The translations under genes and the position numbers were made by a program. 64,000 nucleotides of DNA, taken from Rhabdothermincola salaria. Lineage in GTDB: Bacteria; Actinomycetota; Acidimicrobiia; Acidimicrobiales; Acidimicrobilacustridaceae. Position 1 is the stretch's first letter; each line of letters begins with the position of its first letter. Shown one piece after another: positions 31,932-35,178 of this stretch. The stretch is taken from positions 372,001 to 436,000 of the forward strand of contig NZ_JAJQXW010000003.1 in NCBI RefSeq assembly GCF_021246445.1, read 5' to 3'. The notes below the pieces were generated by a model. The model had not been told where the DNA came from, did no database searches, and was given only the letters and a program-made list of their open reading frames with translations.

Positions 31932-32834
31932 TCAGGCGTTGCGGCGACGGGCCAGCATGACCAGCAGCAGGCCACCGGCCAGCACCGAGCCGCCGGCGAC
32001 GAGGAGCCGCCCGCTCTCGGAACCGGTGTAGGGCAGGGCGCCGGTCGGGGTGACCGACTGGGTCGTGCCCAGCACCTCGGCCGCCTGCTGGTTGGCGGCG
32101 GTGGTCGGCGCGGACGATTCCGGGGTCGAGATGATGGTCGTGCCGAGCACGCTGCTGGTGGTGGTGGTGTCCTCGGTCGTCGTCGTCGGGGCCTCGGTCG
32201 TGGTGGGCTGCACCTCGGTCGTGGTGGTCGTCGGGGCCGTCGTGGTGGTGGTCGGGGCCGTCGTGGTGGTCGTCGGGGCCGTCGTGGTGGTCGTCGGGGC
32301 CGTCGTGGTGGTCGTCGGGGCCGTCGTGGTGGTCGTCGGGGCCGTCGTGGTGGTCGTCGGGGCCGTCGTGGTGGTCGTGGTGCCGGTGCCGACGCACACG
32401 TGGCTCAGCACGAACATGTTCGGCGCCTCACCCGTGTAGGTGGCCGACGAGCCCGACGCGACGAGGTCGCCGAGGGCGTAGCCATCGGGGACAGCCACGA
32501 AGACGTTGTCCTGCTGCGACCCGTTCGGGATGATCTGGGCGCCCGAGAACGCCATCACGGTGCCATCGAGGTTCAAGGTGATGGTGTCGAACGCCGCCGA
32601 GTCGTTGTTCGGCGTGAAGACGAAGTGCCAGTAGTCCTCGACCGTGCCCGGGCAGTCGCTCTCGGCACCGGCGGTGTCGTTGTGCAGCGGGATGCCGTGA
32701 GTGTCGGCGCCGGCCACCGTGGGGGTGGTGGAGGAGGTGAAGGCGAAGATCCCGAAGGTGATGAGGGCCATCGCCGCGACGATGGCGACGATGCGGGTGA
32801 TCGGGTTCTCCACAGAGAGGGGGGTGCGAATCAT
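31932..32834 (-). CDS. LPXTG-like cell-surface protein with Thr-rich stalk (paralogue 1)
   Basis: 300 residues with AGGAG 6 nt before the ATG. Order: signal peptide (about 1-42), a compact domain of about 110 residues (IPLHNDTAGAESDCPGTVED ... MFVLSHVCVG, two Cys that may pair), and a stalk of seven TTTTTAP units. Two VLGTT motifs follow, then LPYTG at about 267, a membrane helix and a RRR tail. This is a sortase-type anchoring signal. The compact domain, near-identical in paralogue 2, is not one I recognise. The repeat DNA unit is 21 nt and almost perfectly kept, suggesting recent slippage growth. No sortase gene is in the window. Confidence 0.88.
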   Translation of the reverse strand: MIRTPLSVENPITRIVAIVAAMALITFGIFAFTSSTTPTVAGADTHGIPLHNDTAGAESDCPGTVEDYWHFVFTPNNDSAAFDTITLNLDGTVMAFSGAQIIPNGSQQDNVFVAVPDGYALGDLVASGSSATYTGEAPNMFVLSHVCVGTGTTTTTTAPTTTTTAPTTTTTAPTTTTTAPTTTTTAPTTTTTAPTTTTTAPTTTTTEVQPTTTEAPTTTTEDTTTTSSVLGTTIISTPESSAPTTAANQQAAEVLGTTQSVTPTGALPYTGSESGRLLVAGGSVLAGGLLLVMLARRRNA

Positions 32835-32880
32835 TCCAGGCTCCTGTCGGATCCGACATGTGCGGATCGTGTACGTCGAC

Positions 32881-33009
32881 GGGGCCGGTTTCGCTCTGAC
32901 TCCTCGCCCGGCCTAAGCGACCAGTTGCACCGGGCGGATCGATGTCTCCCCGACCGCCACGGTGAGTGGCGGTCACAGGGGCAATCGCCACCCAGCGACG
33001 TCGGGATAC
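32881..33009 (-). ncRNA. structured 5' leader L1 of surface-protein gene 1
   Basis: On the minus strand, a GTATCC box (33004-33009) is followed about 50 nt later by a hairpin with a 9-bp stem (GACCGCCAC/GTGGCGGTC). Next come GGGGAGAC, GATC and the helix CGCCCGG ... CCGGGCG, then GAGGAGTCAGAGCGAAACCGGCCCC in two parts ending at 32881. The ATG is 170 nt after the box. GGCCGG of the helix can pair instead with the distal CCGGCC, so two exclusive folds are possible. The same layout is seen in L2 and L3. Confidence 0.6.
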
Positions 33010-33034
33010 GGCCTGAACCACAAAAGGAACGGAA

Positions 33035-33065
33035 ATGGGCCGTCCGGACTAGCCGGACGGCCCAT
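33035..33065 (-). terminator. hairpin terminator of surface-protein gene 2
   Basis: A perfect 13-bp stem (ATGGGCCGTCCGG and complement) with a 5-nt loop lies 54 nt after the stop of paralogue 2. On the minus strand it is followed by the T-rich run TTTCCGTTCCTTTTG. It separates paralogue 2 from the promoter of paralogue 1. Confidence 0.85.
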
Positions 33066-33118
33066 CTCGTGGATCGACCCCCCTCAGATGTGGCAGGGGT
33101 CACTGCGGTTCGTGTCGA

Positions 33119-33871
33119 TCAGGCCAAGCGACGACGGGCGAGCACCACCAGGGCGGTGCCGCCCAGGAGCACGGCCGCACCGACCGTGAGGAGCCATCCG
33201 TCGGACAGACCGGTGTAGGGCAGCTGGCCCGCCGCCGCCTGGGTCGTGCCCAACACCTCGGCGGCCTGGACCGCACCCGTGGTGGGCGAGCCCGCCGTGG
33301 TCGGGGCGCTCTCGGTGGTGGGGGTGCTGACCGTGGTGGTCCCCAGCACGCTCGTCGTGGTCGTCGCCTCGGTCGTGGTGGTGGTGGTCGTCGCCTCGGT
33401 CGTCGTGGTCGTCGACTCCGTCGTGGTGGTCGTGGTGCCGGTGCCGACGCACACGTGGCTCAGCACGAACATGTTCGGCGCCTCACCCGTGTAGGTGGCC
33501 GACGAGCCCGACGCGACGAGGTCGCCGAGGGCGTAGCCATCGGGGACAGCCACGAAGACGTTGTCCTGCTGCGACCCGTTCGGGATGATCTGGGCGCCCG
33601 AGAACACCACGGTGTCCCCGTCGAGGTTCAAGGTGATGGTGTCGAACGCCGCCGAGTCGTCGTTCGGCGTGAAGACGAAGTGCCAGTAGTCCTCGACCGT
33701 GCCCGGGCAGTCGCTCTCGGCACCGGCGGTGTCATTGTGCAACGGGATCGAGCTGCCCGCTCCAGCCGCGGCCGGCGAGACGCCGAGCGCGAGCACGCCG
33801 AGGACGAGCGCGAGAGCCGCACCGAGCGTGGCGAACATCCGCGCCGTTGGCCGAAGGTGATCGTGTGCCAT
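33119..33871 (-). CDS. LPXTG-like cell-surface protein with Thr-rich stalk (paralogue 2)
   Basis: 250 residues from the ATG at 33871, with AGGAG just upstream. Signal peptide ends near SPAAAGA; the compact domain (IPLHNDTAG ... VLSHVCVG) is almost the same as in paralogue 1, including a 180-bp stretch with identical DNA. The stalk is shorter and irregular (TTTTTES, TTTTEA units), followed by SVLGTT and EVLGTTQ, LPYTG at about 217, a membrane helix and RRRLA. It is probably covalently linked to the cell wall or held in the membrane as a surface display protein. It has its own leader and terminator, so it is separately transcribed. Confidence 0.88.
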   Translation of the reverse strand: MAHDHLRPTARMFATLGAALALVLGVLALGVSPAAAGAGSSIPLHNDTAGAESDCPGTVEDYWHFVFTPNDDSAAFDTITLNLDGDTVVFSGAQIIPNGSQQDNVFVAVPDGYALGDLVASGSSATYTGEAPNMFVLSHVCVGTGTTTTTTESTTTTTEATTTTTTTEATTTTSVLGTTTVSTPTTESAPTTAGSPTTGAVQAAEVLGTTQAAAGQLPYTGLSDGWLLTVGAAVLLGGTALVVLARRRLA

Positions 33872-33918
33872 GAGGAAGCTCCTGTGGGAGTCCGGCACGA
33901 AGACCGGACGGTAGCGAA

Positions 33919-34050
33919 GGGGCCGGTTTCGCTCTGACTCCCCGCCCGGCCAGAAGCGACCAGTCACACCCGGGCGGATCCACGTCTCCCCGTCCACCGC
34001 CAGATCGGGGTGGATGCGGTTGTCATCGCCACGCTGGGCGGTCGCGATAC
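33919..34050 (-). ncRNA. structured 5' leader L2 of surface-protein gene 2
   Basis: Minus strand: GTATCGCGAC box (ending 34050), a hairpin TCCACC/GGTGGA, CGGGGAGAC, GATC, the helix CCGCCCGG ... CCGGGCGG, then GGGGAGTCAGAGCGAAACC and GGCCCC. Start codon 175 nt after the box. Core sequence almost the same as L1; the distal helix alternative GGCCGG/CCGGCC is also kept. Confidence 0.6.
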
Positions 34051-34143
34051 CCCCTCGGGAAGAAAGCCGGCCAACGGTCTCGCGTCGTGTCCATCCGACC
34101 ACAAGGCGTGACCACTGCGCCGGGGGAGGGCTCCGACGCGCCT

Positions 34144-34174
34144 CGTCGGCGGAAGACCAGGTCTTCCGCCGACG
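34144..34174 (-). terminator. hairpin terminator of surface-protein gene 3
   Basis: A perfect 14-bp stem (CGTCGGCGGAAGAC and complement) with a CAG/CTG loop lies 13 nt after the stop of paralogue 3. No T-tract follows on the minus strand, so termination may be partial or factor-assisted. Confidence 0.7.
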
Positions 34175-34186
34175 GGGGCAGTGCGC

Positions 34187-34996
34187 TCAGGTGAGCAGCC
34201 GGCGCCGGGCCAACAGCACCAGGAAGGTGCCGCCCAGCAGGACGGCGGCGGCCCCCGCAGCCAGCCATCCGGTCTCGTCGCCGGTGTAGGGCAGGGCCTC
34301 GACGGCCGGGGCCTGGGTCGCTCCCAGCACCTCGGCGCCCGCGGTGGGCGCCACCGGGGTGGTGGATCCGGGAAGGGTGGTGGTCCCGAGGACGCTGCTC
34401 GTGGTCGTCGGCTCCACCGTCGTGGTCGTCGGCTCCACCGTCGTGGTGGTCGGCTCCACCGTCGTGGTCGTCGGCTCCACCGTCGTGGTCGTCGGCTCCA
34501 CCGTCGTGGTGGTGGCGAAGGTGCCGTAGCAGGCGACGATGTTGCTGATCTGCTTGCCGTTCGCGGTGGTCAGGCCAGTGCCGCCGGTCGCCCCGGTGGC
34601 GGGGTCGTAGAGGTAGATCTGCGAGGCCCCCGTCCCGCTCTTGACGAACACGATGTTCATCGGCTGGGTGGACGACCAGTCGAAGCTCGGCGGCTCGGCG
34701 TTGTCCATGGCGGATACGGTGAACGGGCCGACCGTCGTGTCGCGAGGTGGGTCGACCTTCACCTGGGTCCAGTCGGGGACCTCGGCGAGGTAGCCCTCGG
34801 CGACGAGGATGGCCCCGAGGCTGGCGCACGTCTGGGCGCTGGTGTCCTCGACGGGAACGACGATCGGGTAGCCGACCTGGGCGCCGGCCGACGTCGTCAG
34901 GGCGACGCCACCGAACACGATGAGGGCCATGGCGGCGAAGATCGCCACCGAGCGGGCGGCGAGGCCGCCTCGATGGAGGGTGATCGTGCGGGTCAT
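34187..34996 (-). CDS. LPXTG-like cell-surface protein with Thr-rich stalk (paralogue 3)
   Basis: 269 residues from the ATG at 34996 with GGAGAGGAGG upstream. Signal peptide through about residue 40 (TTSAGAQ). The ectodomain (about 42-160) differs from paralogues 1 and 2 but also has two Cys (TCASLG, VACYG) and a GxSxxP-like NIVFVKSGTGASQIYLYD stretch. The stalk is five TTTTVEP units, then SSVLGTT, EVLGATQ, LPYTG at about 235, a membrane helix and RRRLLT. It shares leader structure and C-terminal layout with its neighbours, so the three form one family with exchangeable heads. Confidence 0.86.
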   Translation of the reverse strand: MTRTITLHRGGLAARSVAIFAAMALIVFGGVALTTSAGAQVGYPIVVPVEDTSAQTCASLGAILVAEGYLAEVPDWTQVKVDPPRDTTVGPFTVSAMDNAEPPSFDWSSTQPMNIVFVKSGTGASQIYLYDPATGATGGTGLTTANGKQISNIVACYGTFATTTTVEPTTTTVEPTTTTVEPTTTTVEPTTTTVEPTTTSSVLGTTTLPGSTTPVAPTAGAEVLGATQAPAVEALPYTGDETGWLAAGAAAVLLGGTFLVLLARRRLLT

Positions 34997-35043
34997 GACC
35001 GCCTCCTCTCCCCTCCGACCGGTGGCCGGAGGTCCGATGGAAA

Positions 35044-35178
35044 GGGGCCGGTTTCGCCAGTGGCTCCCCACCCGGCCGCACGGCGGCCAAGGGATTTCCG
35101 GGTGGATCATCGCCTCCCCGGCGACCACTCTCTGTGGTCTCCACTTGAAACATCGTCCGAAGGGGTGCGCCAGGATAC
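35044..35178 (-). ncRNA. structured 5' leader L3 of surface-protein gene 3
   Basis: Minus strand: GTATCC box (35173-35178), a hairpin GACCAC/GTGGTC, GCCGGGGAGGC, GATGATC, the helix CCACCCGG ... CCGGGTGG, then GGGGAGCCACTGGCGAAACC and GGCCCC. Compared with L2 a G-C pair has become A-T on both sides of the helix, which is a compensatory change. Start codon is 177 nt after the box. The loop here is a longer hairpin (GGCCGC...GCGGCC). Confidence 0.6.

Follow-up and report, generated by a model that had tools for sequence, protein, structure and literature searches.

The LPXTG genes and their leaders

The minus strand of the window (the whole 64-kb stretch of DNA analysed here) carries, from position 35178 to 31932, three genes for sortase-anchored (LPYTG) proteins, each preceded by a leader of about 180 nt; genes and leaders are called A, B and C below. 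Gene A (34187..34996) encodes a protein of 269 aa with a signal peptide, a Thr-rich stalk and the sortase-anchored LPYTG end (PF00746, E 4e-4; TIGR01167). Gene B (33119..33871) encodes an LPYTG surface protein of 250 aa (TIGR01167, E 8e-4; PF00746 just under the cut-off), and gene C (31932..32834) one of 300 aa with Thr-rich repeats (PF00746, E 5.5e-4; TIGR01167). The ectodomains of proteins B and C are near-identical, and that of protein A differs. A terminator-like inverted repeat is found on the minus strand 3' of gene A (GTCGGCGGAAGACCTGGTCTTCCGCCGAC, 34145..34173), where it would separate transcription units, and another, with TTTCC after it, 3' of gene B (ATGGGCCGTCCGGCTAGTCCGGACGGCCCAT, 33035..33065). 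Given these repeats, each of the three genes is probably a separate transcription unit. A Guanidine-III match at 34114-34170, which overlaps the repeat after gene A, was taken as chance (18.4 bits against a cut-off of 36, E 0.72).

The initial annotation had described one and the same order of elements ahead of the three genes, and all of these elements were found on the minus strand. The GTATCSYGRC box is common to the three leaders and reads GTATCCTGGC in leader A (35169..35178), GTATCGCGAC in leader B (34041..34050) and GTATCCCGAC in leader C (33000..33009); in leader A it probably represents the -10 region of a promoter. The distance from the box to the start codon was given as 170-177 nt, perhaps with another anchor; with the G of GTATC and the A of the ATG as end points it is 182 (A), 179 (B) and 175 nt (C). 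The first GGGGAG is at 35119, 33991 and 32951 in leaders A, B and C, respectively, and a second copy follows in leaders A and B, whereas its counterpart in leader C is GAGGAG. GATC, the helix and GCGAAACCGGCCCC are present in all three leaders. The element described as a variable hairpin is, in leaders A and C, a palindrome resembling a BldD box.

Family, fold and ligand pocket of the leader RNA

Searched with cmscan, the three leaders matched the Rfam models of c-di-GMP-II riboswitches. The aptamer of leader A lies at 35036..35126 (RF03169, 52.4 bits, E 7.3e-9), that of leader B at 33913..33998 (RF01786, 40.5 bits, E 1e-6; RF03169, 38.7 bits) and that of leader C at 32874..32958 (RF01786, 46.1 bits, E 2.6e-8; RF03169, 42.9 bits), all on the minus strand. 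The curated cut-offs are 53.5 bits for RF01786 and 40 bits for RF03169, the model named c-di-GMP-II-GAG. The RF01786 scores of the three leaders (46.1, 42.1 and 40.5 bits, E 9e-9 to 4e-7) all fall under the first cut-off, which is a detection threshold and not a property of the RNA, and the structural and pocket features of the family are present. The second cut-off is passed by leaders A and C; leader B stays below both, so that only A and C are reported when the curated cut-offs are applied. In the whole genome there are only four c-di-GMP-II matches at E < 0.01, three of them being the leaders of the window.

With c-di-GMP-II RNAs (RF01786; 3Q3Z) the leaders share P1, P2, P3, the pseudoknot, the conserved GA, UGG and ACCG letters and the U37/A69/A70/G73 pocket, and they differ in being G+C-rich and in scoring below the Rfam cut-off. 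The twin GGGGAG, GATC and GAAACCGG fall within the conserved c-di-GMP-II core in the Rfam alignments; what had been noted as a two-fold look is that of an ordinary core of this family, the Rfam consensuses having GGAG and GGAG/GAGC at these places. We read leaders A, B and C as c-di-GMP-II riboswitches in the 5' leaders of LPXTG surface-protein genes, with a probability of roughly 0.85. A structured, conserved and probably riboswitch-type leader common to the three genes, as first proposed, was borne out, and c-di-GMP, among the families named there for comparison, matched in all three leaders. In Paraclostridium and its relatives, surface-anchor genes follow tandem riboswitches of the same family (PMC9481103), with two or three aptamers per gene; in the window, in contrast, each of the three genes has one.

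Three copies alone prove little, but 40 relatives support the fold. When 40 aligned U37 aptamers were compared with the c-di-GMP-II structure including the pseudoknot, 93.5% of the pairs were standard (98.4% in the pseudoknot), and 15 of the 21 pairs had two-sided changes. The covariation score of these aptamers was 0.381, as against 0.137 in shuffles (0 of 500 reached the observed value) and at most 0.073 when the structure was slid, an excess of compensatory changes that supports the structure. The compensatory change reported earlier for the helix is real: CCACC/GGGUGG in leader A, the copy then called L3, corresponds to CCGCC/GGGCGG in leaders B and C. The alternative pairing of GGCCGG with CCGGCC, on which two exclusive folds had been based, is possible in all three leaders; however, of 65 non-redundant relatives sharing the U37/A69 pocket only 8 have GGCCGG at that position, therefore it is not a conserved switch and the scheme of two folds was rejected.

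The ligand contacts listed for 3Q3Z in a review are A13, A14, U37, G39, U60, A61, C68, A69, A70, C71, C72, G73 and A74 (PMC7288161); we mapped position numbers ourselves from the 3Q3Z sequence. The pocket letters U37, A69, A70 and G73 are found in all three window leaders, and U37 and A69 in 40 of the 40 aligned aptamers, a set defined by U37. Position 68 is C in 3Q3Z and A in the window leaders, where it pairs with U39; in leader A, C39 stands opposite A68, a mismatch adjoining the pocket at a place where U-A is found in 39 of the 40 aligned sequences. Ligand binding may be weaker in leader A than in leaders B and C. On the grounds of the canonical U37/A69/A70/G73 pocket, c-di-GMP is the predicted ligand, and the window RNAs are canonical c-di-GMP-II riboswitches whatever their Rfam label.

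Under a rival reading the leaders belong to the GAG variant and would sense another signalling molecule; in its favour, leaders A and C exceed the RF03169 cut-off, RF03169 gives leader A its best Rfam score and all three leaders are under the RF01786 cut-off. This variant has the same fold and occurs in the same bacterial class, also before surface genes. C37 and G69 are, however, the letters of the RF03169 consensus, and the name GAG appears to stand for G69 A70 G73 of that consensus; in the window leaders both defining letters are absent and U37 and A69 are found instead, whereas true C37/G69 copies occur in relatives and are clearly separable. The higher RF03169 score also fits a shared G+C-rich sequence. 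On these pocket letters we rejected the GAG variant for the window leaders and consider it improbable. An entirely new class of cis-regulatory RNA, as the initial annotation had it, could be upheld by leader B scoring below the Rfam cut-offs, but c-di-GMP-II models match all three leaders (E 7e-9, 3e-8 and 1e-6), and the RF01786 and RF03169 matches are full-length, with the pseudoknot, P1-P3 and the ligand-contact letters in place; we thus give a new class practically no weight. The near-identical ectodomains of proteins B and C would suit leaders that are functionless duplicated DNA, carried along with paralogous genes. Such a reading is refuted by the strong covariation among 40 diverse sequences, and the leader was kept before gene A in spite of its different ectodomain, which leaves this explanation hardly credible. 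Canonical c-di-GMP-II riboswitches therefore remain our reading of the three leaders.

Among 135 aptamers of the class Acidimicrobiia we distinguished three main pockets, U37/AAG (48), C37/GAG (at least 43) and U37/ACG (30), with U37 accompanied by A69 and C37 by G69 in all rows except a few for which the motif search got position 37 wrong. The U37/A69 and C37/G69 combinations thus tell the canonical from the GAG type here. The Rfam label c-di-GMP-II-GAG is being applied to RNAs with a canonical pocket, which matters for studies of what the true GAG variant binds. The ligand of that variant is not known to have been settled in the literature. The fourth aptamer of the same genome, on another contig (C2:580918-581001, 34.3 bits), has C at position 70 (U37/A69/C70), and in four genomes of one family a MoaA-like gene follows an aptamer of the ACG type. 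GAG-type and AAG-type aptamers occur together in several genomes of the class (e.g. G048, G131 and G146). At least 14 GGDEF matches were found in the genome of the window. In one family of the class (f32, e.g. L178, L197 and L009), nine genomes with GAG-type riboswitches are without a canonical GGDEF match and have only a REC-GGDDF-like protein, and their BldD homologue, where found, is without the c-di-GMP signature. Canonical GGDEF is missing from 9 of 23 genomes with the GAG type and from 0 of 48 with a U37 aptamer, the nine belonging to one clade and hence not being independent. These genomes give a starting point for finding the ligand of GAG-type RNAs. The idea that one divergent REC-GGDDF protein supplies all GAG riboswitches with a special ligand was rejected, since some families encode this protein but no riboswitch, and it is missing from several GAG genomes.

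Matches to c-di-GMP-II were found in 74 of 247 Acidimicrobiia genomes, mostly before genes for secreted or surface proteins, in a sample drawn mainly from this one class and made up of non-independent relatives. According to a crude script, 91 of the 135 genes that follow an aptamer start with a hydrophobic, signal-peptide-like segment, and many of the closed frames have an LPxTG end. No relatives of protein C turned up in named genomes, and searching with an aptamer DNA pattern was more productive. Two proteins similar to B and C are encoded by an uncultured actinobacterium (CAMFLJ010000048.1), each with this leader. The related aptamer is also present in Dactylosporangium and in a Frankiaceae MAG. 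These observations would connect sortase-anchored surface proteins with c-di-GMP throughout a class of Actinomycetota that has been little studied.

Expression platform

Binding of c-di-GMP would stabilise the fold of P1-P3 and the pseudoknot. The Shine-Dalgarno sequence of leader A, GAGGAG (35003..35008), lies in a region with which the P1 3' strand GCCCCUUUCC can pair (duplex of -18.2 kcal/mol). For AGGAG of leader C (32841..32845) and AGGAG of leader B (33879..33883), all on the minus strand, the corresponding duplexes have -10.9 and -5.7 kcal/mol, so that the pairing is strong in leader A, moderate in C and hardly present in B. In leaders A and C the P1 3' strand would more likely switch to the Shine-Dalgarno region than to the GGCCGG:CCGGCC fold, and the predicted effect of c-di-GMP there is release of the ribosome site, making a translational ON switch. 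Leader B has no evident platform of this kind.

In the class as a whole, starts are mostly 15-60 nt downstream of the aptamer (gene starts were picked by script), which speaks for translational control. The P1 3' strand of GAG-type leaders fits its own Shine-Dalgarno region better than those of other leaders (permutation p 0.0002), so that an ON switch is predicted for them, whereas AAG-type leaders as a group showed no fit above chance (permutation p 0.70); our permutation values, like our Fisher values, ignore phylogeny. We thus rejected one common anti-Shine-Dalgarno platform in AAG-type leaders, and in the window the ON mechanism depends on leaders A and C individually. In about ten AAG-type leaders a hairpin ACCGGCCC...GGGCCGGU is found downstream of the aptamer instead, with U-rich sequence next to it in some. 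The platform thus varies, and the sign of regulation in the window, ON for leaders A and C, is inferred from their pairing potential.

The palindrome upstream of the aptamers and the BldD homologue

Each leader also contains a site resembling a BldD box, one mismatch or less from the relaxed class consensus CCACNCWGNGTGG: CCACAGAGAGTGG in leader A (35125..35137), CCGCCCAGCGTGG in leader B (34029..34041; one mismatch) and CCACTCACCGTGG in leader C (32957..32969; one mismatch), all on the minus strand. These are the only three such sites in the window, one per leader; about three would be expected, so that there is no overall excess and the placement alone is striking. The published Streptomyces box is TNAC(N)5GTNA (PMC4151990), and the window sites, at one mismatch from the relaxed consensus, do not fit this strict form. 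Upstream of c-di-GMP-II aptamers the palindrome is enriched, CCAC-N5-GTGG being found 39 times in 120 non-redundant stretches of 150 nt, compared to 0.74 in shuffles. The form [CT]CAC-N5-GTG[AG] is present in 31 of 49 GAG, 18 of 52 AAG and 7 of 30 ACG leaders. Leaders have 3.9 boxes per kb, compared with 0.45 for the remaining non-coding DNA at these loci and 0.12 for reading frames; overlapping loci entered the count more than once. As the riboswitch class is already known, this enrichment in Acidimicrobiia just upstream of the aptamers, and with it a probable BldD site often in the same leaders, is the new element of the finding.

The genome encodes one BldD homologue, similar to 2EWT and 4OAZ, with an HTH_3 domain (PF01381) and a BldD-like_C domain (PF21179, E 2e-21); it scores 152 of 250 bits with the NCBIfam BldD equivalog model, under the cut-off. 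Its sequence RQDFNGRVLTIRKDD, RQD-X8-RKDD, fits the published c-di-GMP signature of BldD, RXD-X8-RXXD (PMC4151990). A perfect box CCACGCTGAGTGG is located about 80 nt upstream of the start of the bldD homologue, and boxes of similar form precede bldD in many of the class genomes looked at. The homologue is present in 156 of 247 genomes of the class, and a bldD orthologue in Acidimicrobium has been noted before (PMC4255298). The HTH domain, the signature and a palindromic site of the same spacing are shared with Streptomyces BldD (PMC4151990), whereas the outer letters preferred here are CC/GG.

We consider it an even bet that the palindrome is a DNA site bound by BldD. It might instead be an RNA element, either a 5' stabiliser or a part of the riboswitch, for the copies in leaders A and C can form a perfect hairpin immediately 5' of P1. 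However, equally foldable mirror palindromes are rare (2 of 135 leaders, versus 56 with the box form), NCWGN is preferred in the centre although a loop would not need such letters, the distance from box to aptamer is variable, and bldD itself is preceded by the same site, here and in further genomes. An RNA hairpin is, in our view, rather unlikely.

If the palindrome is a BldD site, a BldD-like regulator that itself binds c-di-GMP would probably sit on it in the promoter-proximal part of the leader. Two receptors for c-di-GMP would then act one after the other on the surface-protein genes, first BldD-(c-di-GMP) on DNA at the promoter and then the c-di-GMP-II riboswitch on the mRNA. We put forward such a two-receptor leader for Acidimicrobiia only tentatively. 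Should BldD repress as in Streptomyces and need about micromolar c-di-GMP, and should the ON riboswitch need far less, the arrangement could work as a band-pass, in which only intermediate levels of c-di-GMP allow the surface protein to be made. In the literature searched, mostly papers available without subscription, we found neither BldD and a riboswitch on one leader nor a riboswitch at BldD targets. The leaders offer testable cases in which DNA-binding and RNA receptors for one messenger may act on one gene. Outside the class, an exact BldD box TTACGCAGAGTGA was observed upstream of the riboswitch in the Frankiaceae MAG (L206).
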